Positions 86 through 46,059 of a DNA stretch of 46,059 nucleotides are shown here, piece by piece. Source of the stretch: Chitinophagales bacterium (GTDB lineage: Bacteria; Bacteroidota; Bacteroidia; Chitinophagales; LD1); NCBI GenBank assembly GCA_025057415.1, contig JANWXI010000010.1, positions 1 to 46,059 of the forward strand. Reading direction: 5' to 3'. Both the position numbers and the translations under genes were made by a program. Each line of letters begins with the position of its first letter. Within the stretch, counting starts at the first letter, position 1. Under the pieces are notes generated by a model. That model searched no databases, was not told the origin of the DNA, and saw only the letters and a program-made list of their open reading frames with translations.

Positions 86-351
86 ACATCCACTCAACAC
101 ATTATATTTATTCTTTATACAAATCGTTACTGCCACACGTGCTCATCTGTGCTGCTTTGCGCAAAACAAGGGCTGCCGGAGCGCTTGCCCGGGTGAGGGA
201 TGCGAAGGGCACGAGCGCAGCGAAGTGGCCGCACCCGCACCGTTGAAAAACATTCAACGCGCGGGCGCGGCGGGAGCGAAAGCGTACCCCGTAGTAAGCC
301 CGACCCCGCTTCTGCGCGTAGCTATGCGAAGCGCAGCAGCGGGGGCACCCC
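86..351 (+). repeat. GC-rich structured intergenic repeat, copy 1
   Basis: This 266-bp copy runs from ACATCCACT to GGGGCACCCC and closely matches copy 3 (42700-42963), especially from about position 168 onward. It has an AT-rich left third, then a conserved core beginning GGGTGAGGGATGCGAAGGGC. Next comes an inverted repeat (GCCGCACCCGC / GCGGGCGCGGC, one mismatch) whose loop carries its own 7-bp stem (CGTTGAA / TTCAACG). A conserved ACCCCGTAGYAAGCCCGACCCC block and a terminal 14-bp stem with one mismatch follow. It lies 60 bp beyond the 3' end of the pseudouridine synthase gene. ORFs across it are low-complexity and different in each frame, so it is treated as non-coding. Strand is nominal. 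Confidence 0.8.
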
Positions 352-411
352 ACAACAATTAAAATGCCATTGGGTGCAGCGTTGTACTTTAAAACATTTG
401 AGATTGCACTG

Positions 412-1482
412 CTATGGAGAGCGCTCTTCCTGCTGACTGAGTGTACCGTGGAAGTACTTGCGCCATTTTTCCAGCACTGTTGCGAAGTCATCGGGCAGGG
501 GACATTCAAAGTACATTTCGCGGCCGGTTCGCGGGTGTACAAAACCTAACGTGGCAGCATGCAGGGCTTGCCGGGGCATGATGGCGAAGCAGTTTTCGAT
601 GAATTGTTTGTAACGGGTGTAAACGGTGCCTTTTAGTATCTTGTTACCCCCGTACCGCTCATCGTTAAAAAGCGTGTGCCCGATGTGTTTCATGTGTACA
701 CGTATTTGGTGAGTGCGGCCTGTTTCAAGCTCGCACGATACGAGGGTTACGTAGTGAAATCGCTCCAGCACGCGATAGTGGGTGATGGCCGGCTTGCCAA
801 AGTCGCCTTCGGGAAACGCCTGAAACTGCCGGTGCTCGCGACCGTGCCTGCCGATGTTGACGGAGATAGTACCTGAGTCGTTTTTTATATCGCCCCATAC
901 GAGGGCGAGGTACTGGCGTTTTGTGGTTTTGTGATAAAACTGCCCAGCAAGGTGCGCCAGCGCCAACTCGCTTTTTGCCACTACCACCACGCCGCTGGTG
1001 CCTTTATCTATGCGGTGCACCAGTCCCGGCCGCAAGGGTTCACCGTCTTTTGGCGGTAGATCTTTGAAATGCCACAAGAGGGCGTTGATGAGTGTGCCCG
1101 AAGGGTTGCCAAGACCCGGGTGCATTACCATGTAAGGGTCTTTGTTGATAACGATTACGTCTTCGTCTTCGTACAGAATGTTGAGGGGTATGTTTTCGGG
1201 AATTAAATCGTACGAGGGAGGGCGGGGTATGATGAGGTCTATCACATCGCCTCCGCGTACTTTGTAGTTTTGTTTTACAGGTTTGCCGTTTACGGTGATG
1301 TTGCCGGCATCGGCTGCGTAGCGAATTTTGGTGCGGCTTATATTGCCCCCTATGAGGTGATGGAGGTACTTGTCTATGCGAAGAAGTTGCTGACCTTTAT
1401 CAACCGTAAAGGTCATTCGCTCTATGAGCTCGTCTTGTAACAAGTCCGGCTCACAGGTATCGTCTTCGTTACGTATAGTCAT
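412..1482 (-). CDS. RluA-family 23S rRNA/tRNA pseudouridine synthase
   Basis: This 356-residue enzyme should isomerise specific uridines to pseudouridine in rRNA or tRNA. An N-terminal S4-like RNA-binding segment (about residues 33-85, with RIDKYL and the VNGKPVKQNYKVRGGD stretch) precedes the catalytic domain. The RluA-family signature HRIDKGTSG is at 156-164, with Asp159 the expected catalytic residue. A downstream ETGRTHQIRVH motif is also typical of the family. The length fits the RluD branch, but the target uridine cannot be assigned from sequence. The ATG at 1482 lies 46 bp downstream of the SlyD-like gene on the same strand, so co-transcription is likely. Repeat copy 1 begins 60 bp past the stop codon. 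Confidence 0.92.
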   Translation of the reverse strand: MTIRNEDDTCEPDLLQDELIERMTFTVDKGQQLLRIDKYLHHLIGGNISRTKIRYAADAGNITVNGKPVKQNYKVRGGDVIDLIIPRPPSYDLIPENIPLNILYEDEDVIVINKDPYMVMHPGLGNPSGTLINALLWHFKDLPPKDGEPLRPGLVHRIDKGTSGVVVVAKSELALAHLAGQFYHKTTKRQYLALVWGDIKNDSGTISVNIGRHGREHRQFQAFPEGDFGKPAITHYRVLERFHYVTLVSCELETGRTHQIRVHMKHIGHTLFNDERYGGNKILKGTVYTRYKQFIENCFAIMPRQALHAATLGFVHPRTGREMYFECPLPDDFATVLEKWRKYFHGTLSQQEERSP

Positions 1483-1528
1483 AACCGCAATACCGGAGTG
1501 TGTGAGACGTTGGCTGGCAAATGGTTAA

Positions 1529-2035
1529 TCAGTCGTGGTGGTGGTTGCCGTGCGGATGTACGTGACCATGTTGAATTTCCATGGGGTGTGCATCGCGAAC
1601 GTCAACCACTTCGCCACTAAAGTAGAGCGTTTTGCCGGCGAGGGGGTGGTTGAGGTCAACCGTTACGTTATCGTTTACGATGTTGACAATGCGCCCGTGG
1701 AAAGGATTGCCGTCCTGGTCCATAAGCGGAATTACATTTCCGACAAAAATCATGTCTTCCTGAATAACGCCATTGTGGCTGAAGAAACTGCGGTTGAGTT
1801 GCAAAACGGCTTCTTCTTCGTAATCGCCATACCCTTCTGCCGGAGACAGTACGAAGTCAAATTTATTACCAACGGATTTACCTGCCAGGTTTTCCTCAAA
1901 TTTTTCCAAAACGTTTTGATGGCCGAAAAGAAAAGAGAAGGGATTTTGCCGGTCAGCGCGGTCAACTACATCGCCATCTGGTTCGAGACGTAGTTCGTAA
2001 GTTATACTGACTACTTTGTTGTGAGAAATTTGCAT
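1529..2035 (-). CDS. SlyD-like FKBP-type peptidyl-prolyl cis-trans isomerase
   Basis: This 168-residue cytoplasmic protein has an FKBP fold interrupted by an insert-in-flap chaperone domain, as in SlyD. It should catalyse prolyl isomerisation and act as a folding helper. Family landmarks are the N-terminal VSITYELRLEPDG strand, the FLFGHQNVLEKFEENLAGKSVG segment (the usual G-x-E-AL-x-G-x-xxG region) and SPAEGYGDY. The C-terminus is histidine-rich (HGHVHPHGNHHHD), resembling the SlyD metal-binding tail and suggesting nickel or zinc binding. The start is supported by a perfect -7 box (TAGCTTTG) just upstream. The pseudouridine synthase gene follows 46 bp downstream. Confidence 0.9.
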   Translation of the reverse strand: MQISHNKVVSITYELRLEPDGDVVDRADRQNPFSFLFGHQNVLEKFEENLAGKSVGNKFDFVLSPAEGYGDYEEEAVLQLNRSFFSHNGVIQEDMIFVGNVIPLMDQDGNPFHGRIVNIVNDNVTVDLNHPLAGKTLYFSGEVVDVRDAHPMEIQHGHVHPHGNHHHD

Positions 2036-2052
2036 TATAATGAGATTTGGCG

Positions 2053-2060
2053 CAAAGCTA
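2053..2060 (-). promoter_or_regulatory. Bacteroidota -7 promoter box for the SlyD-like gene
   Basis: The minus strand reads TAGCTTTG, an exact match to the TAnnTTTG -7 consensus, 17 bp upstream of the ATG at 2035. No TTTG is seen 19 bp further upstream, so the -33 element is weak or absent. Confidence 0.55.
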
Positions 2061-2089
2061 AAGATAATAATTCAGGCGGCATAAAAAAG

Positions 2090-2743: not shown

Positions 2744-2764
2744 GTAAAATAATTTTAACAGCCG

Positions 2765-2772
2765 CAAATGTA
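2765..2772 (-). promoter_or_regulatory. -7 promoter box for the fatty acid hydroxylase gene
   Basis: The minus strand reads TACATTTG, an exact TAnnTTTG match, 21 bp upstream of the GTG start at 2743. It is the main argument for the short form of that protein. No matching -33 TTTG is visible. Confidence 0.5.
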
Positions 2773-2829
2773 GGTAAAGTAAAAGATAAAATATTAGAAG
2801 GTTTGTGAACAATGCTGCACTGGGGGACA

Positions 2830-3894
2830 TCAAAAGAGGGCGGGACAATGGCCAGGACGCGGTTTTTTGCGATAACATCCCTGGTAAGTAAGAGCTATTT
2901 CGGGCGCTCCGATAGTTCCCGAGGCGGGTACAAGGCGCGATACGTTGATATCGTAACTCAAGCCGGCGCTGAAGCCCTTTACCTCAAAACGTGTGACAAG
3001 TATAACGGCATCATAAAAGTTGTTATGGAAAATGCCCCTGTATTGCATGCCAAAGGTAAGAGCCATTTTGCTGGTTTTGGTGTTGTTGCCCAGCATTGAG
3101 CGCATGCCCAGCCCCACGTTAAACTGATTGGCGGGACCTTGTACCAGTACCAAAAAGTTAGGCAGAAGTGATGTGCGGTTGTTTTTCCCGACGTTTATGG
3201 ATGAGCCCCCGTGCAGCGTTATTTTCATTCTGAGGCGTTCATTACCCAAATCACCGCTGGGGCGGAATGAAATTTTCGGTTGATTGAGGTGATGCAAGGC
3301 AAAGCCTAGGTAAAAATTATCGTTGCGGTTTGTGAGAGCACTGTAGAGCGCTCCTAATCCGGCATCACCGAATATAATACGTGTGCGAGCAAAATTCTCT
3401 TTAAGACCGGTAGGATTCACCGTGCCAGTGGTGGGGTCATATTGTGAGTCGAAAGTAGCTTTAGAGTCGTCAATGGTGCGGAAATTAAAGGCGCCCTGAA
3501 TGCCGGTAGAAATCTGCATGGTGCCCTTGCGGTTTAGCATAAAGTGATAAGCGAAGTTCAGGTCAGCATGATAGTTGGAAAAATTGAGCGCTCCGGCCTG
3601 GTCCATGAAAAGTTGCAGCCCTAATCCGGCAAAACTGTTGTACTTAGTAACCTTACCAATGGTCATGTCGGCTCCGGCAGATAAGGTTCGGTAAGTATTA
3701 CCCACTGAAACCGTAGGCCACTGTATGCGAAAGTTGGCATACACCCGGTAGTCACAGTTGTTCATACCTGCCAGTGCAGGGTTCAGCAACAAAGGCGCTG
3801 CGTTGTATTGAGAAAAGTGAATATCCTGAGCTGTTGCCACACAGGCAATCAAGAACGCAGTGGCAGAGGCATGAAAATTTAATAATGTTTTCAT
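2830..3894 (-). CDS. PorP/SprF-family type IX secretion outer-membrane protein
   Basis: This 354-residue predicted outer-membrane barrel belongs to the PorP/SprF family. Members work with the T9SS, typically with a specific large surface protein encoded next door (SprF with the gliding adhesin SprB). A signal peptide ends near CVATAQ and is followed by the family hallmark DIHFSQYNAAPLLLNPALAG. Alternating hydrophobic beta strands and sequences such as FAGLGLQLFMDQAG continue the pattern. The ATG at 3894 follows the stop codon of the giant PKD gene (3901-3903) by only 6 bp, so the two are surely one transcript. The TTG at 3900 is a possible alternative start, but the ATG gives a cleaner signal peptide. 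Function is inferred from family and synteny. Confidence 0.92.
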   Translation of the reverse strand: MKTLLNFHASATAFLIACVATAQDIHFSQYNAAPLLLNPALAGMNNCDYRVYANFRIQWPTVSVGNTYRTLSAGADMTIGKVTKYNSFAGLGLQLFMDQAGALNFSNYHADLNFAYHFMLNRKGTMQISTGIQGAFNFRTIDDSKATFDSQYDPTTGTVNPTGLKENFARTRIIFGDAGLGALYSALTNRNDNFYLGFALHHLNQPKISFRPSGDLGNERLRMKITLHGGSSINVGKNNRTSLLPNFLVLVQGPANQFNVGLGMRSMLGNNTKTSKMALTFGMQYRGIFHNNFYDAVILVTRFEVKGFSAGLSYDINVSRLVPASGTIGAPEIALTYQGCYRKKPRPGHCPALF

Positions 3895-3900
3895 ACGCAA

Positions 3901-6900
3901 TTATCTTATAAGTGTAACATTACCTTTGCCGGATACGGTATCTCCGTTTATACATTCAATCTCATACGTGTAAACGAAAACTGCCGGATTAAGTTGCTCA
4001 CCGCTGCGGCTGGTGCCGTCCCAGCCCCATTTGGTTTCGTTGGGTACACCATCTACAGCTTCAAATACGAGTTTCCCCCATCTATCGTAAATGCGGAAGT
4101 AATTGATTTTAACGGCGGCTAAGCCGCGTATCATAAAGATGTCATTTAAGCCGTCACCGTTGGGAGTAAAGGTATTGGGTAAAAATATAACGCTCTCTTC
4201 ACAACGCCCGAGCACGGTGATAGTTACACTGTCCACCTGGGTACAGGTTACACCGTTTCGGCTATAATAAACTGTGGCGGTGTAAGTAGTGGTTTGGGTA
4301 GGTTGTGCAATCGGGTTGGGACAATCGCGGCAATCAAGGGTATTGTAGGGGCTCCAGATAATGCTGTCTATTTGCGCGGGTATTTGCGAGGTGATGTTAG
4401 ACGTGAGTCCCAATACAATTTTATCGGGGGCAGCGCTGACATCAAACGGTATGGGTTGAATTACAAAAACACTGAAAGTGCTGGTATCTGCCGGGCATAC
4501 TCCGTTTGTAGCTGTAATGTTATAACCGATACTCGCCAATGGGGTGATATTTACGGTGCCCGAGTTGGGGTTATCTATCCAGGTGGTGGGTGTCCATGTG
4601 AGATTATCATATACCCCGGCAACGGTATAAGTCAGTGTTTCACCCAAGCAGATAGTAGTATCGCCCGGGTTGATATATAACTCGGTTTGAGCATCTATGT
4701 TGAAAGATTTCACGATGGAATCGGAGCAGTTGTTTTGATCGGTCACTACCAACAGTACACTGTAGTTGCCCGGAGGAAACTGGAATGAGGTGTTACAGTT
4801 GTTATCAAAAACCGGATTTGGGGCACCGAGCCAGAATGTCCATTGGCAGGATACAATTTGAGCATCTCCTGGAAGAGATATGTTGTTGAAAGGTACCGGC
4901 TCAATTTCGCAGCCCGTTTTTACGTTGAAATTGGCAGTTGGCGCCTCGTGTAACGTTAAAGAGAGAGTAGTAGTGTCAAAACAACCATTTTGGTCGGTGA
5001 CAGTCAGGCTTATAGTATATGTGGGCAAATAAGGAGGGTTGTAGGTGTGGCATATCGGGCCAGTGCCTGTAGCGGTGAACCCGTCGCCAAAGTTAAATAC
5101 AGTAGATGTAATGTTTACAGCGCTGGTAGATTGACTTGTAACACACACTCCTTCGTAAGAGCATATTTCAGATTCACTGAGTGTGAATACTGCATTCGGG
5201 CTGGGTAAAATATTAACCGTACGGAAAGCAGAGTCAATACAACCATTATTGTTAACGGCTATCAGTTTGATGGTATAATTAGTGCCTGGAGCTGAGTAAT
5301 AGTGACAAGCATAGGCGGTGTTGTACGTAGTATTATCGCCAAAATCATATAACCAGCCAACGGTAGTGCCGTTTACGTTCGTACTTGCATCTACAACACA
5401 CACACTGTCATCCAAACAATAGTTGACCCCAGTGTTGAATGCTGCATCTATCAGCGAATGGGTTAAGTAAGCATAGTCGGTGTCGCGGCACCCGTATTGG
5501 TCTCCTACATAAAGTGCAATAAGTGTATCATAACAAATCGTTACTGAAGGATTAGGTATGCTGGGGTCAGAGAATAGCCCGGCGGGCTCCCATTGATAGG
5601 TTACACCTCCGCTGCCAATGAGTGTGGTAGTAACACCACAACATACAAACTTGTCTCCACCTGCATTTGCTACAGGGTTGTCAATAACTCTGATGACTAC
5701 GTTGGAGTCGCAGTCAGGGCACCCCACACTGTCAAACACACACATAGTAACCCGATAGTAGCCACCGGTATCATATGTGTGACATGCGAATGGAATACCT
5801 TTTACCGTATCAATTTGTCCATCACCCCAGTACCAAATCCAGTAATCGGCACCGGTTAGCGGGTAAATCCACGATGTGTCGTAAAAACATATCGGAGTGT
5901 TCTGACAAACAATTGAGTCCTGTGCATAAAAACCAGCAATGGGATACTCAGGTATAACCACTATTACACCTACAGAGGAATCAATACAACCATGGTTACT
6001 CTCAATATATAGTTTTACGTTGTAACCACCAACGTTGGCATAATAGTGACACGGAGCGGGGTTTTGCGATGAATCAATCGGAGAACCGTCTCCAAAATCC
6101 CAGTACCTTTTCACGGTGTAGGAGTGGGTGGATGGTAGCGAGTAAGTAGTCATATCCTGAAAGCAAACTGTACCATTTACACACACACCATAGTTGTTAA
6201 ACGTAAATTGAACAGACGGGGAGTCAATGTATAAGTAAGCGGAGTCAATGTAAACCTGACAACCTGACGCATCGCCAAGTACTACTTGAGGGAGACACGA
6301 GTCAACATAACAGTAAGGTAATTTAGTTGAGATGCACTGCGGGTTACTTTCTGTGCCAACAGGATTAAAATTGTAGAACAGCGTAAATAAGCTACAACCG
6401 GAGAGCAATGCAAGATTGGTAGCTTTTATGGTGCACACATTAAATTCTACCGAGTCGTTGCAGGCACAGATATAGGGGGAAGGGTTAAGGTTAAATGTAC
6501 CGGAAGGTCCTAATACAATCACAGTATCTACGTAAGAGCTGTCGCAACAACCCGCGTTGCAAACAGTTAAATGAACGGGGTAATTTCCGGCGGAATTATA
6601 GATATGTGAAGGATTTTCTTGATTAGAAACACTTCCATCACCAAAGTCCCACAAATATGTTGAATTGGCATCAGCGTAAAGTGATGAGTTTATAAAAGAG
6701 AGTACTTGTGGAGGGTTAGGACAAGTAAGTGTATCATTACTGACTGTGCCCATTGCTTCAGGGTATTGTGCATATATCATTATGCTATCCTCTTTTGTGC
6801 AAGCGTTTGCGCCACCTACAGTTGCCACTACTTTGATTAAATAATTGCCTGGCGTTGGGAAATTAAAACAGGGAGCTACAGCAGTTGATGAGGAGGGTAT

Positions 6901-9816
6901 TGCTCCCGGACAAGTCCATAAATAACTAACATTCTGAGCAACTGTGTTGTTTGTAATGCACCGCGATTGGCCCGGGCAAATTAACGTGTCAATACTGTAG
7001 TTTAAATAAAGAGGAGCGCCCACTTGAACCTGCTTTGTTATAGAACTGACGCAACCTTGTGGATTTTGAGGCGTTTGGTTGCTTCTGACTGTTAGCGTTA
7101 CATTGTAAGTGCCCTGTGAGGGGAATTGATAGTTGGGCTCCCAATCGGTTGAAGTAGCAGGGGGATTTCCACCGAAATTCCACAGCACTGAAGTAATCTG
7201 ACAGTTGGTAGTGTCAGAACTTAAGTTTACGAAATTGGTAGAGTCAGGCAGGCAGGCAATGTTTGATGAGAAGTTGGCATTGGGTTTACACACATACACA
7301 TAACCATAAACGGTATCTTTACAACCACTTTGATTAGTAGAAATCATTCTGACGCACCACCTGCCTAAGAAGTTGAAAATTTTTGTCACTGTATTGGTGG
7401 TGTGAGTAGAGGAGAGCGCAGCACAATTATTTCCTAATGTGAATCGCCAAGACGTACTTACAGCGTTGGGTGTTAAATTAGTAAATGTAACCGAGTTGTT
7501 TAAGCATATGGTGGTATCGAGTGGAGTAAAACTGCCTAAGTTACAGGGACCGGTGACCGAGCTATCTACAACTCTGTGTACACAACCAAATGTGTCATTG
7601 TAAGCAATTAACTCTATGGGGCAACTTATACATGCTGGTAAGTTAACGTTGACATCTCCTGTTGGGTTGATGTTTTTGGAGGCATCAATGGTGTCATTTG
7701 TACATTGTAGTACCCAATACAGCCGGTTATATCTCTCTGATTTGTTGTCCAGAAATACGGAACCTTGATTTCCGCTACATGGGATGGTAAAATCAAAATC
7801 AGCTCTTGGAGGATTAACCGTTATTGGTAAAAATGTAGTATCACTGTAACAGCTATCTCTCATCGTTATTATCTTGGCTTGAAATTGTCCGATGGATGAG
7901 TAGGGCAAGCAGAAAGTAAATGGGTATAAATTTTGGGGACAGTTGGGATAATTCGGACAAACGGTGAAACATGACCAGTTCCCATCCCCGTAGGGATCAA
8001 TGCACACTTCATTAACTGTATCCGGGCATGACAGGGTAAAACAAACTGTGTCTTCGTAACAAACGGTAGTAGGATTTGCAGTAATACCGCAGTTTATTTT
8101 TTTACCGACACAAACAGCTTTTATCTTTTTTACAGTATCCACGCAACCGCCTACTGTTCGGGCTATAACCCATACGTCATAACATCCCGGGTTATTGAAG
8201 CACTGCTGATGTGTGTAGGGAGGAGATGTGTAGCATGCCAGAGGAGTACCGGTGTTAGGAAAGTACCAGCAAACTTGCTGTATAGCATCACCCGGAGGTA
8301 TGTTTTGAGCAGGTATTTGCGCTGAAAAATTTACACATAACGGAGAACATCCCTTAACTTTGTTTTGAATTATAGTGGGTTGTAGCTTTCTGATTTTAAT
8401 GTAGTTTGATTTTCTTAATGTATCTGAACATCCAGACGGTGAAGTTACTACATGCTGAACCGTGTAAAAAGTGAAACTGTTAAGAGTAATAGATGGGTTT
8501 GGTGAAGTTGAAAACACAGAAGCAAGTGACGGAGGTGAAATCATCCATTGATGAGTGCAGTTAGGGCAGTTAGATAAATCAGTAAGTTGAACTGTATGAG
8601 GAACTTTGCAAGCTATGGTGTCTGCCGTAGTGAATTCGGCAATGGGTTTGGCAGAAGTGCTGAATTGTTGGGAGTAGCTATTCTGACAACCTGGGGCAAA
8701 GATAACAGTATGTGTTACCGTGTAAGTACCTTGAGCATTAACACAGTAAGTGGCATTTTGTGTATTGTAAGTAACATTTCCGGGGGTGATGTTCCAAACA
8801 TGTTGTGCATTACTGCTTCCGGGTGTATTGTCTGTAAAGGTTATACAACCAGGAGTGAAAGGATTTACACAGAAATTGTTACCGGATGCAGTAAAAGATG
8901 TATTTGGTGTGGGACGGTTACAGATCATATTTGTATAGACAATAGAATCAGCACAACCGGATGGGTGATATGCGACCAGTTTAACTGTATAACAATCCGG
9001 ATTTACAGGGAAGACATGCTGGTAAGTTTTTGCAGTATCATCTTTTACAACAACATTGTTAATAATAATTTTATATTTAGTGAGTGGGCTGGGAGATGGA
9101 TTGCAAATTGTAAAATTTGTGGTCAATGGAGTTGTTGAGCAGTTCTTTGTGGTACTGTCAGCAGTTAAACATGCCACGGGTGGAGGTATTTTACAAGTAA
9201 CGTCATCTAATCTTTTACGGCCTACACAACCAATATTGTCAATTGCAATAAGTGTAAGATCCTGACATCCATAAGGACAATAAGCCGGAAAAGTGTAACT
9301 GGTAAGAGCAGCACCCTGAGTAGTAACCGGTGCACCGCAACTAGGTTGGAAAATAGTAGAGGCCAACGAACCAACAGGAATGTTGATTGACGGAGTGATG
9401 GTAATGGTATGCGGCGGACAACTCTCGTAAGGGCTTACGGTAAAATTCACAGTGGGTGTATCGCGCACTACAATATTGTTTACCACTTTCGTGCAGGACT
9501 GTCCATTACTCCCGGTCACGGTGGCTGTAAGCCGGAATGTACCGGGAGTTGTAATCACGTATGAGAAGTTCTTTTGTAAGCTTGTGGCGACTACAGTGCC
9601 CCCTGGTACCGTTACTAATTGCCAATTGTATGTAGGATTAGGCAATGGTGGTACTATACTGACAAATGAATCAACCAGTAGATATGGACTACAGGTGTTT
9701 GTATCTTTTGAAAGTATCACACAGTTAATCTGCGATTTAACTGTGTAGGTAATGGAAAGCAATGAAAAAAAAACTACAATCGCTATGAAACAAATTGACT
9801 TGTTGGTCTGTCTCAT
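3901..9816 (-). CDS. Giant Cys-rich PKD-repeat surface protein with gliding-motility (CHU_C, type B) C-terminal domain
   Basis: This 1971-residue secreted protein has an N-terminal signal (hydrophobic run FIAIVVFFSLLSITYTV, cleavage probably before QINC). Most of it is a tandem array of PKD/Ig-like modules. Clear WDFGDG-type motifs occur in the second half (WDFGDGSVSNQENP, WDFGDGSPIDSSQNP, WYWGDGQ, YDFGDNTT, FNFGDG). Cysteines recur throughout; in several modules Cys sits just before the His-x-Tyr of the repeat (PCHYY, ACHTY, ACHYY, ICHTY), suggesting disulfide-stabilised modules. The last ~90 residues are a CHU_C domain (LPNTFTPNGDGLNDIF...RIYDRWGKLVF...GNVTLIR), the type B T9SS sorting signal. 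The adjacent PorP/SprF gene supports secretion and surface attachment by that partner. The role is probably adhesion or gliding, but no ligand is indicated. Confidence 0.93.
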   Translation of the reverse strand: MRQTNKSICFIAIVVFFSLLSITYTVKSQINCVILSKDTNTCSPYLLVDSFVSIVPPLPNPTYNWQLVTVPGGTVVATSLQKNFSYVITTPGTFRLTATVTGSNGQSCTKVVNNIVVRDTPTVNFTVSPYESCPPHTITITPSINIPVGSLASTIFQPSCGAPVTTQGAALTSYTFPAYCPYGCQDLTLIAIDNIGCVGRKRLDDVTCKIPPPVACLTADSTTKNCSTTPLTTNFTICNPSPSPLTKYKIIINNVVVKDDTAKTYQHVFPVNPDCYTVKLVAYHPSGCADSIVYTNMICNRPTPNTSFTASGNNFCVNPFTPGCITFTDNTPGSSNAQHVWNITPGNVTYNTQNATYCVNAQGTYTVTHTVIFAPGCQNSYSQQFSTSAKPIAEFTTADTIACKVPHTVQLTDLSNCPNCTHQWMISPPSLASVFSTSPNPSITLNSFTFYTVQHVVTSPSGCSDTLRKSNYIKIRKLQPTIIQNKVKGCSPLCVNFSAQIPAQNIPPGDAIQQVCWYFPNTGTPLACYTSPPYTHQQCFNNPGCYDVWVIARTVGGCVDTVKKIKAVCVGKKINCGITANPTTVCYEDTVCFTLSCPDTVNEVCIDPYGDGNWSCFTVCPNYPNCPQNLYPFTFCLPYSSIGQFQAKIITMRDSCYSDTTFLPITVNPPRADFDFTIPCSGNQGSVFLDNKSERYNRLYWVLQCTNDTIDASKNINPTGDVNVNLPACISCPIELIAYNDTFGCVHRVVDSSVTGPCNLGSFTPLDTTICLNNSVTFTNLTPNAVSTSWRFTLGNNCAALSSTHTTNTVTKIFNFLGRWCVRMISTNQSGCKDTVYGYVYVCKPNANFSSNIACLPDSTNFVNLSSDTTNCQITSVLWNFGGNPPATSTDWEPNYQFPSQGTYNVTLTVRSNQTPQNPQGCVSSITKQVQVGAPLYLNYSIDTLICPGQSRCITNNTVAQNVSYLWTCPGAIPSSSTAVAPCFNFPTPGNYLIKVVATVGGANACTKEDSIMIYAQYPEAMGTVSNDTLTCPNPPQVLSFINSSLYADANSTYLWDFGDGSVSNQENPSHIYNSAGNYPVHLTVCNAGCCDSSYVDTVIVLGPSGTFNLNPSPYICACNDSVEFNVCTIKATNLALLSGCSLFTLFYNFNPVGTESNPQCISTKLPYCYVDSCLPQVVLGDASGCQVYIDSAYLYIDSPSVQFTFNNYGVCVNGTVCFQDMTTYSLPSTHSYTVKRYWDFGDGSPIDSSQNPAPCHYYANVGGYNVKLYIESNHGCIDSSVGVIVVIPEYPIAGFYAQDSIVCQNTPICFYDTSWIYPLTGADYWIWYWGDGQIDTVKGIPFACHTYDTGGYYRVTMCVFDSVGCPDCDSNVVIRVIDNPVANAGGDKFVCCGVTTTLIGSGGVTYQWEPAGLFSDPSIPNPSVTICYDTLIALYVGDQYGCRDTDYAYLTHSLIDAAFNTGVNYCLDDSVCVVDASTNVNGTTVGWLYDFGDNTTYNTAYACHYYSAPGTNYTIKLIAVNNNGCIDSAFRTVNILPSPNAVFTLSESEICSYEGVCVTSQSTSAVNITSTVFNFGDGFTATGTGPICHTYNPPYLPTYTISLTVTDQNGCFDTTTLSLTLHEAPTANFNVKTGCEIEPVPFNNISLPGDAQIVSCQWTFWLGAPNPVFDNNCNTSFQFPPGNYSVLLVVTDQNNCSDSIVKSFNIDAQTELYINPGDTTICLGETLTYTVAGVYDNLTWTPTTWIDNPNSGTVNITPLASIGYNITATNGVCPADTSTFSVFVIQPIPFDVSAAPDKIVLGLTSNITSQIPAQIDSIIWSPYNTLDCRDCPNPIAQPTQTTTYTATVYYSRNGVTCTQVDSVTITVLGRCEESVIFLPNTFTPNGDGLNDIFMIRGLAAVKINYFRIYDRWGKLVFEAVDGVPNETKWGWDGTSRSGEQLNPAVFVYTYEIECINGDTVSGKGNVTLIR

Positions 9817-10017
9817 GAAACTCAGGGTTGGGTTACTGACAATGCAAAATAGACAATAATTAGATAATTCTCATAAACAATTCGTTGCATCGCAAAAACC
9901 ACAAAACAATCCTAGTGAACTCAAATAAAATGATAATCCGGTGATTCACAAAACCCTGTTGAAAATTATTTCTACATAAATCTTATTGGTTGGTTATGTA
10001 CTCGTATAATTGAGAAA

Positions 10018-12528: not shown

Positions 12529-12534
12529 GTGAAG

Positions 12535-15120: not shown

Positions 15121-15272
15121 TAGCGTGCGCCAGCGGGTGAGGGATGCGTAGGGCGCGAACGGAGTGAGCGGTGCGTAACGCAGTGGAGCACGGGAGCGAA
15201 GCGCACCCCGCAGCAAGCCCGACCCCCTGCGCGGCGCGTGAGGTACGAGCGCGGCGCGCAGGGGGGCACCCC
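15121..15272 (+). repeat. GC-rich structured intergenic repeat, copy 2 (shorter, divergent)
   Basis: This copy shares the core (GGGTGAGGGATGCG, GGGAGCGAAGCGCACCCCG, GCAAGCCCGACCCC) and the GGGGCACCCC end with copies 1 and 3. It lacks the AT-rich left third and the long internal stem. Its terminal hairpin uses a different sequence, CCCCCTGCGCG paired with CGCGCAGGGGG, around a GTACGAGC-containing loop. It therefore keeps the pairing while changing the bases. It lies between the divergent cytochrome and uppS genes. The left boundary is approximate and the strand nominal. Confidence 0.75.
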
Positions 15273-24052: not shown

Positions 24053-27000
24053 TTAACGTATCAGCGTTACATTACCCTGCACCTCTACTGAACTTCCGTT
24101 GGTACATTCACCTTTGGCTGTATAGGCATACACGGCAATATCGGCCGGCTTACCGTTAATGGTGCCGTCCCATCCGTTGTTAATAGCATCGGTTTCAAAT
24201 ACGAGTTTACCCCAACGGTCATAAATGCGCAGATAATCTAATTTGCGCAGCCCGATACCGCGCACGTACAGCACATCATTCAGTCCATCTCCGTTTGGTG
24301 TAAATGTGTTAGGTACAAACACCATTGTGGGAGAACATTCCACAACTTTCAGCACGACTGAGTCAAGCGTTTGACATCCCCACTGGTTGGTTGCCACCAC
24401 ATAAGCAGTTTGGTTTTGATTAACAGTGATGTATGGTCTGCGGCAATTTGTACAACTGAGTGGGTCAATGGCGGTCCAGGTGTACGTTACCTGATCGGGC
24501 GAGGCAGCATAAATCTGTACTTGTGTGCCGGGAGTAACTACCTGATCATCTCCTGCCTCCAGGTTGGGCAGAGGCGCAACCGTGATATTGACACTTTCCG
24601 TGTCGGGTGTACAGGTAGAGCTACTAACGATTACCGTGTAGGTATAATTTCCGAAAGGGGCATTCACTACCGGATCTTCTATGATGGTGGAGCTAAGGTA
24701 TTGAGCCGGTGACCATAGGAAAGAAGTATCATTGTAAGATGCCTCGCGTACCCTTAAGTCCAGTTGCACGGGGCCGCCTTCGCATACCAACGTGTCGCTG
24801 ATATTCAGGTCAGCAACCACTTTGTCTATCACATACACCCGCACTATACGTGATATAGAACAGCCCGTACTATTGCTGCCTGTTACTCTGTAAATCATGG
24901 TATCGGGAGGGAAAACTTTCGGGTTCACGCTCAGGGAGTCATCCATGTAAAGTCCCGGGGTCCAGGTGGCGGCAAGCACCCCCTGCCCGGCGCTGAGTTG
25001 CAGCGTATCGCCCGGGCAAATGCGGTAAAAGATGCCGGGGAAAATTGGCGGCAACGGGTCAACATTTACCGTTATGGTGTCGCGAGCCACGCATCCGATG
25101 GAAGTAGTAACTGTAACGTAGTACGTAATTGTGTCGGGCGCTGTGCTTAGCGGATTGCGGCAGGTATCACAGGTTAAGTATTTGGGATTTTGGTCGGCTT
25201 CCCACAAAAAATAATCCCCAAGCGGTAAGTAAAACTGCACGTAATTTCCTTTGCATATAGCCGTATCAGTTGGCAGATTTGGGTACGGTATCAGTCCTAC
25301 CACGATGGTATCTACCGGATACGCCACCACACAACCTAAGCTGTCGGTGAGGGTAAAAACCGGGTAGTACTTGCCGGGTTGTGTGTATGTGTAAACTATA
25401 TTAACCGTGTCTTCAAATACCTGGCCCGTACCTACATCGGCTTTAATGTCAATAGTATTGGAGCTATATGTACCACTGTAAGTAACTGTGAGAGGGACAC
25501 AACCGGTGTCAGGAGTAGCAAGGAAGTTTCCGAGCGGGCCTCCCACTTTGATGTATTTAAGTTTTATGATGGAATCGCGACAGCCCGAAGAGTCATAAGC
25601 TACCATGGCTACATCATACTCGCCCGGAAACTTGTACACATGCAGCGGATTGTAATCGGTGCTGGTGTCTCCATCGCCAAAGTACCACACCCACAAAAGG
25701 TCTGTTCTGTTGGTAGTGTTGAAAAACTTAACCGGAAAAGGAGGGCATGAAGCGAATATGGAATTTGCGTAGAAGTCGGCTACGGGGGTATCTACATTGA
25801 TGTAGTTGGGTTTAATGATGGTGTCAATGCATCCTGCGTTGCTACTTTTGATAATCAACATTACAGTATATGTACCCGCGTTGATGTATGTGTATGTAGG
25901 ATTTTTTTGTGTTGAGGTGCCACCATCGCCAAAATACCACTGGTAGGTTAAGCCGGTGGTTGGGAATGATGTGTTTGTGAAACTCACGGCTTCGCCAGGG
26001 CATACCACGGTATCGGATGTAAAATCCGGGATGTAATCCTGTGAAACGGACTGTTTACTGATGCTGGCCGAGCATCCGTTGTTATCGGTTACCGTGAGCG
26101 TTACAGCAAAATTACCCACTTGCGTAAACGTGTACGTGGGGTTGGGTACGGTGGCACTGTCGCCTGTACCGAATTTGTACTTCCACGACACGACACTCCC
26201 CATAAATGATGTGCTGGTGTTGGTGAACTGCACCTGGAAGGGTGCACATCCGATGATAGGGTTTCTCGTAAAATCCGCTATTACACCATTTACTCTTATG
26301 TATTGCGTTCTGACGAGCGTATCGGAGCATGCCTGGCCGGGATTTATAATCAGGCGCACTGTGTATAAACCGGTATCTGTATATGTGTATGTTGGATTTT
26401 GAACTGAAGATGTAGCGCCTGTACCAAAATTCCACAGCCAAGAGCTGGCAAAAGTAGAGCTATCGGTAAACTTAACGGTTAGCGGCCGGCAACCCACCAG
26501 CGTATCAGCAAAAAACAGCGCGTTGGGAGTGCCGATGGGTAATGTTTTTTTAATTGAATCAACACATCCGGTGGTAAAGTTGGTAACCACTAATGTGACG
26601 GTGTATGAACTTTGCGTTGGGAATGTGTGTACCGGATGCTGTTGGGTGGAGGTGGTGCCATCGCCAAAATCCCAAAACCATGTGTCTGCTCCCTGCGATG
26701 TATCGCGAAATGTAACCGTGGTTGGATTTGTACAATCAAACTCAAAGTTGAAGTCAGCTTTGGGCACTACGATGATAATATAATCAACCCGCTCGGTATC
26801 GGTAGCGCACCCCTGATTGATAACCGTAAGGGAGATGGAATATGTTCCTGTATCTGAATATTGGTGAGTAGGGTTGGGCAGGTTACTTGTTTGACCATCG
26901 CCAAACTCCCAGAAAAAAATGGTTTGTGAAGTGGTGCCGGATACGTTATGAGTAAAATTGATAGGCAAATTTACACATTGTACCAACGGAGTAGCCGTAA

Positions 27001-28582
27001 AGTTAGGGACCAGCGATTGACCCACGATTATGCTGCCGTTGTAATCAAAGGTGTCTTTACATCCCGATGCAGTTTGAATAATCAGTCGGGGCACATAAGT
27101 ACCTGCGTTTAGGTAGGTGTATTGCGGATTGGGTTGTGTAGAGGTGCCGCCATCGCCAAATAACCACAGGTAGCTAACTATCGGCTCTGCTGCTGTAGAT
27201 GTGTTGGTAAATTTTACTACGTGGGGAGTACAACCTTGCGGTGAGTCAAGTGTAAATGATGCATTCAACACGCCAATATCTATCAGGTTGGGAGCAGTAA
27301 TGGTGTTTACGCAACCTGATGCGTTTGTGAGTTGCAGCGTGACTGTGAAGCTCCCTGTGCTGGTGTATGTATGGGAGGGGTTGGGTAAATTGGAGGTGCC
27401 TCCATCGCCAAAGTTCCAGTTGTAAGCTACGGCTCCTGATGCATTGGTGCTAAAATTTACAGTATGTGGTGCATTGCATTCAAAAGTATCACTGGCAGTG
27501 ATGTTGCCGGTAGCGGGGCTGGATACATTGATAAAAGCGGTTTTGGTTTCAGAATCGGAGCAGTTGCCGTAGGTGACTGTCAGGGTTACGGTATAGGTAC
27601 CGTTGGTAGTGTAAGTGTGTGTAGGGTTTTGCAAGTTTGAAGTGCCCCCGTCACCAAAATTCCAGCTCCAGGAGGTGGCAAAGTTTGATGAGTCGATAAA
27701 CTGAATGGGAATGTTAGTACAAGCGTTTGTATTGGATACAGAAAAATTTGCCTGCACGTTTGTTACGGATACTACAATGGTATCTTTTGCCGTGCAACCG
27801 TAAGGGTCCGTAACCGTTACAACAGATTGATATATACCGGTTTGAAATAGTTGTGTGGGGTTTTGCTGCGATGACGTGCCGTTTCCGAAATTCCAACTGT
27901 ATGATACCGGTCCGTTAGATGATGAACCGTTGGCGGTGAAATTAACCAATAGCGAGCTGTTGCAGGTAGTAGGGGGATTTGGGTTACTATTAGCAGTTAC
28001 CTGCGGCTGAGGCCCTATGGTAACAAAATTGTTTTTGGTGATGCTTGATTGGCAACCGTTGCTATCAATCGTCACCAGAATAACATTAAATGAACCGCTG
28101 ATGTTGTAACAATGCGAAATATTATAGCCGGTATCTGCCGGCGTGCCATCTCCAAAATCCCATACGTATTGCACTATACCACTTTCACCAGGTATGGTTT
28201 GGTTAATAAAGCTCACGTTAAAGCACGGTTGAATACATCCGTTGGGGTCAGGTGAAGTAAAATTTGCCGTGGGCGGTTGAAAAACCCTGATTTGTGTAAA
28301 GCATGAATCAACACTGGAGCCGTTGCTTACGATATGTTTTACATTATAAATGCCCGGCAATGGATAAGACGTGGTTGGGTTCGGTAAGGTGGAAGTATTC
28401 CCGTTGTCAAAATCCCAAAAGTGGCTGGTGGGATTACCACTCGAAAGGTCGGTAAATGTAACGGCCGATAAAGGGGCACATCCCGTTTGTTGACTAACTG
28501 TAAAGAAACATTGTACCTGCTGCGCCTGGGCCCCGCAGTGTAATACTACAATCAAAATCAGAGCGTAAACCTTTATTTGCAT
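24053..28582 (-). CDS. Giant protein with tandem PKD repeats and gliding-motility (CHU_C, type B) C-terminal domain
   Basis: This 1509-residue secreted protein starts at ATG 28582, which gives a good signal peptide (IKVYALILIVVLHCGAQA). An open frame to 28636 only adds a non-signal extension. Twelve regular PKD repeats of about 85-95 residues can be counted by their W-x-FG(D/N/T)G motifs, each followed by NP-x-HTY-like and YTVTL-like strands; a thirteenth is degenerate. About three further Ig-like modules follow, some with CDTCRNP-type Cys pairs. The end is a CHU_C domain (VPNTFTPNGDGLND, RIYDRWGKLVFET, GNVTLIR), the type B T9SS signal. A rod-like surface adhesin is the best guess. A barrel-protein gene follows 70 bp downstream. 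Confidence 0.92.
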   Translation of the reverse strand: MQIKVYALILIVVLHCGAQAQQVQCFFTVSQQTGCAPLSAVTFTDLSSGNPTSHFWDFDNGNTSTLPNPTTSYPLPGIYNVKHIVSNGSSVDSCFTQIRVFQPPTANFTSPDPNGCIQPCFNVSFINQTIPGESGIVQYVWDFGDGTPADTGYNISHCYNISGSFNVILVTIDSNGCQSSITKNNFVTIGPQPQVTANSNPNPPTTCNSSLLVNFTANGSSSNGPVSYSWNFGNGTSSQQNPTQLFQTGIYQSVVTVTDPYGCTAKDTIVVSVTNVQANFSVSNTNACTNIPIQFIDSSNFATSWSWNFGDGGTSNLQNPTHTYTTNGTYTVTLTVTYGNCSDSETKTAFINVSSPATGNITASDTFECNAPHTVNFSTNASGAVAYNWNFGDGGTSNLPNPSHTYTSTGSFTVTLQLTNASGCVNTITAPNLIDIGVLNASFTLDSPQGCTPHVVKFTNTSTAAEPIVSYLWLFGDGGTSTQPNPQYTYLNAGTYVPRLIIQTASGCKDTFDYNGSIIVGQSLVPNFTATPLVQCVNLPINFTHNVSGTTSQTIFFWEFGDGQTSNLPNPTHQYSDTGTYSISLTVINQGCATDTERVDYIIIVVPKADFNFEFDCTNPTTVTFRDTSQGADTWFWDFGDGTTSTQQHPVHTFPTQSSYTVTLVVTNFTTGCVDSIKKTLPIGTPNALFFADTLVGCRPLTVKFTDSSTFASSWLWNFGTGATSSVQNPTYTYTDTGLYTVRLIINPGQACSDTLVRTQYIRVNGVIADFTRNPIIGCAPFQVQFTNTSTSFMGSVVSWKYKFGTGDSATVPNPTYTFTQVGNFAVTLTVTDNNGCSASISKQSVSQDYIPDFTSDTVVCPGEAVSFTNTSFPTTGLTYQWYFGDGGTSTQKNPTYTYINAGTYTVMLIIKSSNAGCIDTIIKPNYINVDTPVADFYANSIFASCPPFPVKFFNTTNRTDLLWVWYFGDGDTSTDYNPLHVYKFPGEYDVAMVAYDSSGCRDSIIKLKYIKVGGPLGNFLATPDTGCVPLTVTYSGTYSSNTIDIKADVGTGQVFEDTVNIVYTYTQPGKYYPVFTLTDSLGCVVAYPVDTIVVGLIPYPNLPTDTAICKGNYVQFYLPLGDYFLWEADQNPKYLTCDTCRNPLSTAPDTITYYVTVTTSIGCVARDTITVNVDPLPPIFPGIFYRICPGDTLQLSAGQGVLAATWTPGLYMDDSLSVNPKVFPPDTMIYRVTGSNSTGCSISRIVRVYVIDKVVADLNISDTLVCEGGPVQLDLRVREASYNDTSFLWSPAQYLSSTIIEDPVVNAPFGNYTYTVIVSSSTCTPDTESVNITVAPLPNLEAGDDQVVTPGTQVQIYAASPDQVTYTWTAIDPLSCTNCRRPYITVNQNQTAYVVATNQWGCQTLDSVVLKVVECSPTMVFVPNTFTPNGDGLNDVLYVRGIGLRKLDYLRIYDRWGKLVFETDAINNGWDGTINGKPADIAVYAYTAKGECTNGSSVEVQGNVTLIR

Positions 28583-28955
28583 TTTTGGGGGTGTATCTGA
28601 TAAAACAGATGCGAAAATAACCCTTTGTTGTTGCATCGGTACCTGCCTTAATCACATAATGTGTTTATACGTATACAGAGCACATAAAGTTTTAAGAAAT
28701 TTGGCAGATTATTTTGTTACTACTACTACTGCTAAGAAAATGTACATAGTTTTTCCTTTATCATAACAAGTTTCGGAGCACGAGCAAGTTAAATTTTGAA
28801 GGGTGTAATGCTGGTTACTGATGAAATTATTTGGAAGTTTATGGCGAATAATTGTTTCTGAAAATATGATATAACTTATAGAAAATCAACAAAATATGTA
28901 TCTAATAAGTTTTTGGCATAACAATGCAAAAAGCGGATGTGCTACTACTTTAAAA
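28583..28955. other. AT-rich intergenic region upstream of the second giant PKD gene
   Basis: This 373-bp region lies between the rsmI stop and the PKD gene start. The minus strand has TATTTTCG at 28612-28619, one mismatch from TAnnTTTG and 29 bp upstream of the ATG, a possible promoter. A short TAC/TAG-type tandem run is at about 28720-28734. The rest is AT-rich with no gene, tRNA or clear terminator that I can see. Confidence 0.4.
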
Positions 28956-35346: not shown

Positions 35347-35435
35347 AGACATTCCCTCATGCTGCTTCTTGCTCCGTAAACAGTGCTATGTTGCATTGCA
35401 CAAATGGTATTAAGAAATTTTTCTTGAAAATTAAC

Positions 35436-35485: not shown

Positions 35486-35500
35486 CCCTGAATTTGGTAT

Positions 35501-37575: not shown

Positions 37576-37596
37576 CAGTAATTATTTTACATATTT

Positions 37597-38730: not shown

Positions 38731-38774
38731 TCAAATCTGCATGCAGCACTCCTATTCCCTAAACCACGCAACGC

Positions 38775-42167: not shown

Positions 42168-42499
42168 ATAATAATCAATGATTGACTACCTGATGCAATC
42201 CCTATCTAATGATAATGGAACATTGCTGCAGGCATTGTGATTTACGGATAGCGAACGGTTAATCTTCTGGCAAAAAGTACGCAATCATGCCTATACAACA
42301 ATACCTCCGCTAGTTAGTTTCTGCTACTTAAGTTTAAAGCCAAAAAAAAATACTTGTTGAAGTAGTCGCTTATTTGCCCCGATGAAATTTATATTCCGGT
42401 GTACACTTATTGTATGGAAAGAATGTAGATGGTAGGAGTGTATCGGAGGTGTTAGAACGAAATTTTACGATTAAGAGATTATTGGAATGTGGTTGTATG
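42168..42499. other. Gene-free region after the RND operon
   Basis: These 332 bp are AT-rich and contain no gene, RNA gene or recognisable promoter that I can support. A weak hairpin (CAATGATTG at about 42176-42184) lies just beyond the RND stop but has no T-tract. The region leads into the hairpin cluster. Confidence 0.4.
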
Positions 42500-42528
42500 C
42501 GGGTCGCCCGCCACAGGCGGGCGACCCG
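42500..42528. repeat. Perfect GC hairpin 1 (13-bp stem, ACA loop)
   Basis: CGGGTCGCCCGCC (42500-42512) pairs perfectly with GGCGGGCGACCCG (42516-42528) around a 3-nt loop. It has no T-tract and so does not look like an ordinary terminator. It is the first of three similar hairpins that lead up to repeat copy 3. Confidence 0.85.
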
Positions 42529-42605
42529 AAATGTTGTGTGTTGAATTTATGTGACGTGCCATGCAGGCGCTGGGCTATTGGGAACGGGGAAATTTGTGTA
42601 GTAAC

Positions 42606-42634
42606 CCTGCGAGCCGCCGCAGGCGGCTCGCAGG
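42606..42634. repeat. Perfect GC hairpin 2 (13-bp stem, GCA loop)
   Basis: CCTGCGAGCCGCC (42606-42618) pairs perfectly with GGCGGCTCGCAGG (42622-42634) around a 3-nt loop. The stem length and the central GCC-NNN-GGC match hairpin 1, but the rest of the arm differs. No T-tract follows. Confidence 0.85.
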
Positions 42635-42665
42635 ATGGTTGTTGTGATGTTTAGTTGGGTGAAGA

Positions 42666-42700
42666 TTTCTGGGCGCGCGCCTTTGGCGCGCGCCCAGAAA
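42666..42700. repeat. Perfect GC hairpin 3 (16-bp stem, TTT loop) abutting repeat copy 3
   Basis: The arms TTTCTGGGCGCGCGCC (42666-42681) and GGCGCGCGCCCAGAAA (42685-42700) are perfectly complementary around TTT. The centre is again GCC-NNN-GGC. Its last base is the first base of repeat copy 3, so the two elements are directly joined. Confidence 0.85.
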
Positions 42701-42963
42701 CATCCACTTATCACATTAGATTTATTCATTATACAAATCATCGCGGGAACGCCTGCTTACTTGTGCTGCTCTGCGCCATACAAGGGCTGCCGGAGCGCTT
42801 GCCCGGGTGAGGGATGCGAAGGGCGCGAGCGCAGCGAAGCGGCCGCGCCCGTGCCTTTGAAAATAAACATCACACGGGCGCGGCGGAAGCGGCAGCGTAC
42901 CCCGTAGCAAGCCCGACCCCGCTGCTGCGCGCAGCCCTGCGAAGCGCAGCAGCGGGGCACCCC
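42700..42963 (+). repeat. GC-rich structured intergenic repeat, copy 3 (best preserved)
   Basis: This 264-bp copy matches copy 1 closely. It has the AT-rich left third (ACATCCACT...TTATACAAATC), the core CCCGGGTGAGGGATGCG, then a perfect 12-bp stem (GCCGCGCCCGTG / CACGGGCGCGGC) around a 19-nt AT-rich loop. The conserved GCAAGCCCGACCCC block and a perfect 14-bp terminal stem (CCCCGCTGCTGCGC / GCGCAGCAGCGGGG) with a TGCGAAG-type loop follow, ending GGGGCACCCC. ORFs across it exist in several frames but look like by-products of high GC. It lies between the RND operon and the DUF6671-like gene. Strand is nominal. Confidence 0.85.
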
Positions 42964-43131
42964 ATAATAAAAAGCATGCAATCATTTGCCCCGTGGGGAT
43001 TTGGATAGTTCCCACACAAATTTTAAAGCTAATCTACTGGCAGTATTCGGCATTTTAATTTTATGTGCCTAATTAAATCGTTTAAATAACATTCATTTGT
43101 TGCTTATAAGCACAACTGCAAATCCTTCTCA

Positions 43132-43980: not shown

Positions 43981-43984
43981 GCCG

Positions 43985-44923: not shown

Positions 44924-44941
44924 CCCGTAATTTGCACTTGA

Positions 44942-44949
44942 CAAAATTA
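44942..44949 (-). promoter_or_regulatory. -7 promoter box for the sphingomyelinase-like gene
   Basis: The minus strand reads TAATTTTG, an exact TAnnTTTG match 18 bp upstream of ATG 44923. It excludes the ATG at 44944 as the start. Confidence 0.55.
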
Positions 44950-45017
44950 ACGATTGACCTTAAAAATTAGTGTTGACATCTTTAAATTTTTTTTAAGATA
45001 TCAACGCAACCGGCAAC

Positions 45018-45971
45018 ATGAATAAAATACGCCTCACGCAATGCATCAAAGACGAAGCCCTCCGCCTGGGTTTTGATGCCTGTGGCATTGCCAAAGCCGA
45101 AAAATTAGATAAAGAGGCGCTGTGGCTGGAGCAATGGCTCAACCAAAACCAACACGGAGCCATGAAATACATGGAGAATTACTTTGATAAGCGCATAGAC
45201 CCCCGGCTACTGGTTGAGGGGGCGCGCAGTGTCATATCGCTGGCGTGCAACTACTACACTGATGCCAAACAAGCCGACCCGAAAGCTCCCAAAATAGCCA
45301 TGTACGCTCTCGGCAAAGATTACCACGAGGTTGTAAAAGAAAAAACCGAAAAACTGCTTTCCTACATCCGCAGCATTGCCGGAAACATAAACGCACGCTG
45401 TTTTGTGGATAGCGCTCCGGTGATGGAAAAAGCATGGGCTGTCCGCAGCGGAATAGGTTGGATTGGAAAAAATTCTAATATATTAAGCAAGCGTCGCGGT
45501 TCGTATTTCTTTTTGGCTGAAATCATCACCGACCTGGAGTTGCACTACGACTCGCCCGTAAAGGACTACTGCGGACGTTGCACGCGTTGCATTGACGCCT
45601 GCCCCACAGGAGCTATCGAAAAGCCCTACTCCGTCAACGCCTCCAGGTGCATTTCATACTTTACCATCGAGTGGCGGGGCGACACAATCCCCGATGAACT
45701 CAAAGGCAAATTCGAAAACTGGATGTTTGGCTGCGACATCTGCCAGCAAGTATGCCCCATCAACGCTCAGGCAAAACCGCACAACGAACCGGAGTTAAGC
45801 CCCTTGCCCGCGTTGCTCCAAATGACAGCCGATGACTGGAAACAACTCAACGAAGAAACCTACCGGCTCATCACCCGGCGCTCTCCGCTTAAACGCGCAA
45901 AATTCAAAGGCATAAAACGAAACATCACATTTCTGCAGCAACACAAACCATCCCCCGAAAATTTGTCATAA
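45018..45971 (+). CDS. queG: Epoxyqueuosine reductase
   Basis: QueG reduces epoxyqueuosine to queuosine in tRNA, using cobalamin and two [4Fe-4S] clusters. The 317-residue protein has the expected N-terminal domain (GFDACGIAKAEKLDKEA) and the VDSAPVMEKAWAVRSGIGWIGKN active-site segment. Two ferredoxin-like cluster motifs follow, CGRCTRCIDACPTGAI and CDICQQVCPIN. The C-terminal HEAT-like extension of longer QueG proteins is absent, so it is the short form. It stands alone and divergent from the sphingomyelinase-like gene. No exact -7 box is seen; TTGACA at about 44972 is an AT-rich-flanked candidate only. Confidence 0.95.
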   Translation: MNKIRLTQCIKDEALRLGFDACGIAKAEKLDKEALWLEQWLNQNQHGAMKYMENYFDKRIDPRLLVEGARSVISLACNYYTDAKQADPKAPKIAMYALGKDYHEVVKEKTEKLLSYIRSIAGNINARCFVDSAPVMEKAWAVRSGIGWIGKNSNILSKRRGSYFFLAEIITDLELHYDSPVKDYCGRCTRCIDACPTGAIEKPYSVNASRCISYFTIEWRGDTIPDELKGKFENWMFGCDICQQVCPINAQAKPHNEPELSPLPALLQMTADDWKQLNEETYRLITRRSPLKRAKFKGIKRNITFLQQHKPSPENLS

Positions 45972-46028
45972 CAAGCGGACGCAAACACATTATACTTATT
46001 AAATATATAAATTTTTAAGTATTTGTTT

Positions 46029-46059
46029 GGGGGTGCCCCAGCTGCGTCCCGCTCGTACC
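46029..46059 (-). repeat. GC-rich structured intergenic repeat, copy 4 (inverted, cut by the window end)
   Basis: The last 31 bp begin GGGGGTGCCCC and, read on the minus strand, give GGTACGAGCGGGACGCAGC then TGGGGCACCCC. This matches the right end of copy 2 (GGTACGAGC loop, then 3' arm and GGGGCACCCC), with a different arm sequence. Only the terminal part is visible. It lies about 57 bp beyond the queG stop. Confidence 0.65.

Follow-up and report, generated by a model that had tools for sequence, protein, structure and literature searches.

Dispersed, folded intergenic repeats in a Chitinophagales bacterium: a branch of a wide element family whose frame recurs in Flavo-1

Miniature inverted-repeat transposable elements (MITEs) form a general class with which the longest copies of the repeats described here can be compared. 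These repeats lie in the genome of a Chitinophagales bacterium (GCA_025057415.1, called G000 below), which counts 3.22 Mb in 196 contigs and is 93.85% complete, and we analysed them from one whole contig, C11 (JANWXI010000010.1), whose 46,059 nt are referred to as the window. According to PMC3733652, repetitive extragenic palindromes (REPs) of the GTAG and CGTC types are palindromes of 20-40 bp with tags at their ends; those of the GTAG type go with REP-associated tyrosine transposases (RAYTs), and those of the CGTC type are also found in Bacteroidetes and Spirochaetes. The repeats of G000 resemble them in being high-copy palindromes and differ from them by a core of 126-174 nt (from 79 nt upwards in relatives) and by a multi-stem frame. 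Among pneumococcal repeats, BOX and its like (PMC3049150) are small, interspersed and modular, features in which our elements resemble them. Lastly, the Rfam family Flavo-1 (RF01705) is entered for Bacteroidetes in a table of a 2010 paper, PMC2864571, as a probable RNA ('RNA? y') that is not cis-regulatory.

We favour, with some reservation, the reading that these are copies of a dispersed element, non-coding and non-autonomous, which is defined by its single-strand fold, is mostly fixed and exchanges its hairpins. Copies would have spread earlier via enzymes supplied in trans, in G000 partly within a MITE-like element, and would now be mostly fixed where this was tested. Selection would keep the fold and not the hairpin sequence, and the hairpins would probably be exchanged by gene conversion over short tracts, with the conserved frame as its anchor.

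The 22-mer ACCCCGYAGNAAGCCCGACCCC, searched with at most one mismatch, was found at 106 places on the forward and 88 on the reverse strand of G000, 194 in all, and the reversed pattern used as a control at none; the repeats are therefore not due to chance. The initial annotation of the window, which had proposed a structured, GC-rich family dispersed between genes, is borne out on this point, and its proviso that only the copies of the window might exist falls away with at least 194 of them. The same 22-mer was absent from 59 further genomes drawn from its genus, family and order, and its exact form from scans of the GTDB genomes and of viral contigs, where the records of G000 itself may be left out. 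Many draft contigs start at most about 300 bp from a core (C2, C3, C9, C33, C49, C61, C67, C111, C116, C146, C179, C180 and others); the assembly was probably interrupted by the repeat, of which G000 would then contain more copies than were counted.

The anatomy of the core was established on stretches fetched around known copies, about 1.0 Mb including the window. We observed 121 core-like places there, one of which is, by reading, a chance match in a coding region (L121 + 3494). A script recovered both ends of 106, and 105 distinct cores of 126-174 nt were left after their starts had been reset. The core has a closing stem of 5 bp, P1 (GGGTG/CACCC), an inner stem, P2-P4, made of short helices with conserved unpaired bases between them, one or more inner hairpins of variable sequence, among them a long one, and a 3' hairpin, P8, which is likewise variable and is preceded by GTAG in most G000 copies and usually followed by a C(C)AAA-like sequence. 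When the middle hairpins of the 105 cores were recounted, 65 were of type 1, 33 of type 2 and 7 unclear. In an alignment of 65 type 1 cores of similar length, from which the others were left out, mean column identity is 85%, the predicted fold pairs 94.3% of 3130 cells, and two-sided changes occur in 17 of 51 pairs as against 7.1 in shuffles, none of 500 shuffles reaching 17. Moreover, 5 of 77 distinct core 3' ends occur with both types of middle hairpin, which suggests that parts are shuffled within G000 too.

A covariance model of the core, R1, matches 7 of 396 genomes of the order, six of them besides G000. These matches keep the frame, and most of them vary the closing stem in step (GCGTG/CACGC, CTGTG/CACAG, GCATG/CATGC); one of the loci is identical to Saprospiraceae bacterium UBA3362 over its full length (3068/3068 40-mers). 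A loose pattern scan of the GTDB genomes gave at least 81 stretches. Among the matches listed are, within Bacteroidota, Chitinophagaceae, Hymenobacter, Chryseobacterium, Saprospira, Schleiferia, Cyclobacteriaceae, Pedobacter, Niabella, Segetibacter and Bacteroidales and, beyond them, Treponema, a Leptospiraceae metagenome-assembled genome (MAG), a Spirochaetes MAG, the cyanobacterium Leptolyngbya and a 'Proteobacteria' MAG. The closing stem counts 5 bp or more in 75 of 80 such loci and 4 bp in four, and is lacking in one, which is cut by the end of the locus; the same 5-nt arms pair in 109 of 1648 displaced windows. A second model, R2, gave 77 matches in the 80 loci, with 76 distinct sequences. 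In its cross-taxon alignment, which was fitted to the structure, double changes affect 32 of 40 pairs (21.8 in shuffled data) and 275 cells (82.3 shuffled), P1 is paired at 99.2% with four of its five pairs covarying, and sliding the partner by 1-3 columns lowers the paired cells from 90.5% to 32-50%. By R2, Schleiferia thermophila has at least 40 copies and Chitinophagaceae UBA4857 has 13; such counts are lower bounds, because this model is insensitive and found nothing in 10 of 18 genomes known to carry the pattern. Judged by shared frame and covariation, the core is a branch of a wide family spanning several phyla.

Flavo-1 has the frame in common with it. At the gathering score this family is absent from the window and from the whole of G000, and no other Rfam family exceeds its gathering score in the window, only chance-level matches below it being found around copy 3. 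In the relatives, Flavo-1 matches 29 of 60 genomes at E 0.001 and 20 of 60 above the gathering score, with at least 65 matches in one genome of the same order and 62 in another genome. One Flavo-1 locus, in a congener, coincides in position and strand with a match of R1 (29.6 bits). Both have a head with GGGAU or a like word, a tail of the AAGCCCGA kind, a closing stem and often a 3' hairpin; they differ in the inner domain. The alignment that cmscan shows for the Rfam family contains neither closing stem nor 3' hairpin, and a first test for the closing stem did no better than its control. When the arms were restricted, a choice made with the sequences in view, a stem of 5 bp or more adjoins the head in 11 of 12 Flavo-1 loci as against 81 of 571 control windows, the match in L179 being far off and possibly due to chance. 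Core and Flavo-1 are homologous through the shared outer frame of head, tail and closing stem. The match to a described RNA family, on which the initial annotation had made novelty depend, is thus lacking at the gathering score and half given by homology through this frame, and the idea of an unrelated new family gives way to one whose frame is common to Flavo-1 and to elements in several phyla. An Rfam family that has been unexplained is in this way tied to a much wider set of dispersed repeats and gains a closing stem absent from its model.

The behaviour of the elements at given sites was examined in Saprospira grandis, by comparing strains Lewin and DSM 2844 in collinear blocks at about 94% identity. 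The 300 and 360 kb analysed contain 40 elements each, or about 490-580 per chromosome by extrapolation. Of the 40 Lewin elements, 36 are paired with one at the orthologous site; for the other four none was found, and these are not clean empty sites, because one flank is unalignable over 140-1029 bp. The hairpins tell another story at these shared places: module h1, h2 or P8 is less than 75% identical in 19 of the 36 pairs, four further pairs differ in the short h3 only (6-7 nt), and 13 have no replaced module. In the 19 pairs, a hairpin module of one strain has given way to an unrelated one in the other. Counted apart, the replaced modules are 8 h1, 13 h2, 9 h3 and 4 P8. By comparison, median flank identity is 94%, and an identity under 75% is seen in 8 of 144 control windows, each 22 nt long. 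Since 18 of the 19 replaced pairs retain another long module at 90% or more, the hairpins change piecemeal, as mosaics.

All 42 replaced h1 and h2 modules still form a hairpin. The 3' arm of P4, whose arms lie some 60 nt or more apart, is changed in 11 pairs; as read from the list, both arms have changed to a new match in seven of them, a C-to-T change leaves a G-U pair in three, and the pair is broken in one. Replaced h1 modules recur elsewhere among the 80 elements sampled, for 8 of 8 in Lewin and 6 of 8 in DSM 2844. The exchange is probably gene conversion, and an old family, now mostly fixed where tested, is in our opinion the best reading of these sites. Replacement of hairpins at fixed sites offers a natural experiment on what is selected, here apparently the fold, and also informs on short-tract exchange among dispersed copies, and cultured strains would allow it to be tested. 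At block positions 121741 and 258366, P8 also has a recurrent nested insert of about 75 nt (..CATGAGGGTTT.AACCCTCAT..) in one strain, which the other strain lacks at the same site.

Retention at one site was also observed in other taxa. In 15 Chryseobacterium species the element occupies one orthologous site, a 16th locus (L210) having been left out as different; in the rows that cover it, an open reading frame (ORF) of about 48 codons ends shortly before the element, which can be aligned across the species, unlike the spacer that follows. The loci were chosen by a pattern with 22 fixed bases, whose conservation in this sample therefore reflects that choice; outside the search pattern lie the closing stem beyond TG and a ACCGGAACGAAGTGGAGCCCGGAG-like stretch. 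Flanks are common among species at some Hymenobacter, Treponema and Niabella loci, and not among 7 Saprospira loci or among 6 UBA4857 loci. Behind the Chryseobacterium element we noticed, in several species (L196, L201, L212, L225 and L239), a TTGCTTCGCTTCG..GCAATGACG-like stretch, which we take to resemble a CGTC-type REP.

The gene context was determined with a simple codon-usage caller that misses some genes. The G000 sample of 105 cores comprises two that overlap with predicted ORFs and 27 at the edges of stretches; the other 76 were assigned to the orientations -+, --, ++ and +- (28, 19, 16 and 13), a split that roughly resembles the intergenic background (65.6, 46.9, 31.3 and 19.9 kb in the same order). 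The initial annotation had remarked that three copies lie near gene ends, which is right for copies 1, 3 and 4, at about 58 bp to 0.64 kb; as the split roughly follows the background, a position downstream of a gene is not a rule in this sample. In S. grandis, elements outside ORFs divide as 6/7/6/5 and 8/5/7/6, and 16 of 40 and 13 of 40 fall within ORFs of the crude caller, which are probably spurious frames, so that orientation only was used from it. In both samples there is one element per about 7.5-17 kb, and their orientation relative to genes looks indifferent. Such indifference to orientation offers a possible explanation for the failure of a transcriptome study to place Flavo-1.

Many cores of G000 have AT-rich modules in common on one or both flanks, and the fullest copies are elements of about 0.5-0.9 kb with inverted repeats at their ends. 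By consensus reading they begin with TTGAAGTAGTCGCTTAGTTACCCC and finish with GGGGTATTTATGTGCCTGTTTCAA, the ends being of the TTGAAGTAG kind; the left end and the reversed right end agree at 17 of 24 positions, again by reading, and in the long copies only. Of 24 left-end matches in the sample of about 1 Mb, 22 are no more than 450 nt away from a core of like orientation, either before or after it; of the remaining two, one continues up to where its stretch ends and the other is a weak, partial match, and a wider list of such matches was checked on one strand only. The long copies carry a decayed 8-bp duplication signal: over 10 end pairs, one further pair (L060, span 175 bp) having been dropped as a wrong pairing, the flanking 8-mers are identical at 0.588 as against 0.352 with shuffled partners (0/5000), the length of 8 bp having been picked once many lengths and offsets had been scanned, with 19 of the top 20 combinations adding up to 8. 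Core-only copies have a C at -1 in 27 of 27 cases and A-rich sequence past the 3' end. The MITE-like character proposed by the initial annotation applies to the long copies, with their inverted repeats and duplication signal; the core-only copies show no target duplication. In L088 (G000:C108), at about 3000-3070, a hairpin ending in GCACCCCC, like the 3' end of a core, directly precedes a long element on its left side, an arrangement that would suit the insertion of one element next to another.

Several results weigh against a mobile element that is now mostly fixed and exchanges hairpins. No clean empty site was found between the S. grandis strains and transposition was not seen; for the window copies, the empty-site comparison used one flanking protein, which was matched in 3 of 18 genus genomes including its own, the best other match having 50% identity. 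In core-only copies no target duplication was found, wider offsets included. The whole inner domain is below 75% identity in only 6 of 36 pairs and at 90% or more in 17, and the immediate 60-nt flanks themselves diverge in 4 of 36 on the 5' side and 2 of 36 on the 3' side. The modules are short (about 14 nt for h1, 20 for h2 and 13 for P8), so that some h1 and P8 'replacements' could be ordinary change, and replaced h2 modules seldom recur among the sampled elements (3/13 and 2/13). In long hairpins, palindrome self-correction by template switching could mimic covariation. R1 reaches only 1 of 12 Flavo-1 loci. Finally, the retention in Chryseobacterium is as compatible with a selected function as with an old insertion.

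This last point bears on a functional structured RNA, protein-binding or regulatory, that was multiplied across the genome. The conserved unpaired bases together with the covariation argue for it, as do the site just past a small ORF kept in 15 Chryseobacterium species and the table entry for Flavo-1 in PMC2864571. We nevertheless consider it rather unlikely, since the elements have no clear orientation preference relative to genes, and since 194 copies stand in one genome while the 22-mer occurs in none of 59 relatives. The same indifference to orientation, with the intergenic position and the density given above, would suit a DNA-level site related to the nucleoid, gyrase or replication, REP-like in that a hairpin on either strand would be enough; a hairpin retained while its sequence changes fits as well. 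Such a site leaves unexplained the conserved unpaired bases of one strand, the copy number varies strongly among relatives, and we regard it as unlikely too.

A REP family in the proper sense, moved by a RAYT (HUH) transposase, seems very improbable to us, even though the repeats are palindromic, intergenic and numerous and GTAG precedes the 3' hairpin in most G000 copies. The core is several times longer than a REP, GTAG is internal instead of forming an end tag, and this word varies in other taxa. Furthermore, G000 as assembled has no Y1 (RAYT) transposase above cut-off: the best match, a remnant of 54 aa, scores 20.8 bits against a cut-off of 23, with the limit that such a gene could be missed because the genome is 93.85% complete. 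The REP-like alternative of the initial annotation, in the strict sense of a short tagged palindrome with its RAYT, is not supported on these grounds. Returning to the fixed, hairpin-exchanging element that we favour, it could be extended to a multi-phylum class with a fixed frame and inherited sites, whose hairpin cassettes, drawn from a pool that spans the genome, are swapped piecemeal and with compensation through an exchange process that is either dedicated or guided by the frame; Flavo-1 would then be one of its branches and not a conventional RNA gene. We put this forward as a tentative possibility, which we doubt more than we believe.

The four copies reported by the initial annotation are all present in the window. 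Its positions hold, while two of the limits do not, because 86-190 and 42700-42804 are a shared 5' module (class A, a flank class common to other copies) and not core; 77-249 and 42691-42863 are 84% identical in a self-comparison of the window. Copy 1 follows a low-complexity contig end (1-85) and comprises this 5' module (86..190, + strand) and a core (191..351, +). Copy 2 is a core (15135..15272, +) located between divergent ORFs, with a short middle hairpin of type 2, by reading, and no recognised extra modules. Copy 3, whose extent had been given too short, sits within a longer element on the + strand at about 42357..43077, its left end found by search and its right end by eye, with no target duplication visible. 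Three hairpins delimited by reading, at 42500..42528, 42606..42634 and 42667..42700 (the last an inverted repeat, GGCGCGCGCC TTT GGCGCGCGCC), are followed in this element by the 5' module (42700..42804), the core (42805..42963) and an alpha-like 3' module (42964..43077), all on the + strand. Copy 4 (46029..46059) lies on the - strand and comprises the 3' end of a core, truncated where the contig stops.

Some other candidates were tried and rejected. A stand-alone GIY-YIG nuclease as driver, considered from a weak COG2827 RNA match, was dropped, the single GIY-YIG match in G000 lying in a 627-aa frame. None of 155 closed elements (exact words) has an inner or 3' loop above 130 nt that could hold an ORF. 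Carriage by phages or plasmids was rejected as well: one Schleiferia copy had no match in phage and plasmid collections, and two patterns had none in viral contigs; other Rfam families gave matches only below the gathering score. By title, no paper on bacterial repeats was found in the literature containing both sequence words, a statement limited to that search.

Remains of transposases were seen within about 2-3 kb of a core in L042 (G000:C116), where an IS200-like remnant lies at 1489-1653 and apparent broken frames of another transposase at about 690-1100. In the window itself, two very large ORFs on the - strand, 24053-28636 and 3901-9816, encode 1527 and 1971 aa; the first contains units about 250 bp apart with a common CCATCGCCAAA..CCA, and both perhaps encode repeated surface-protein domains.

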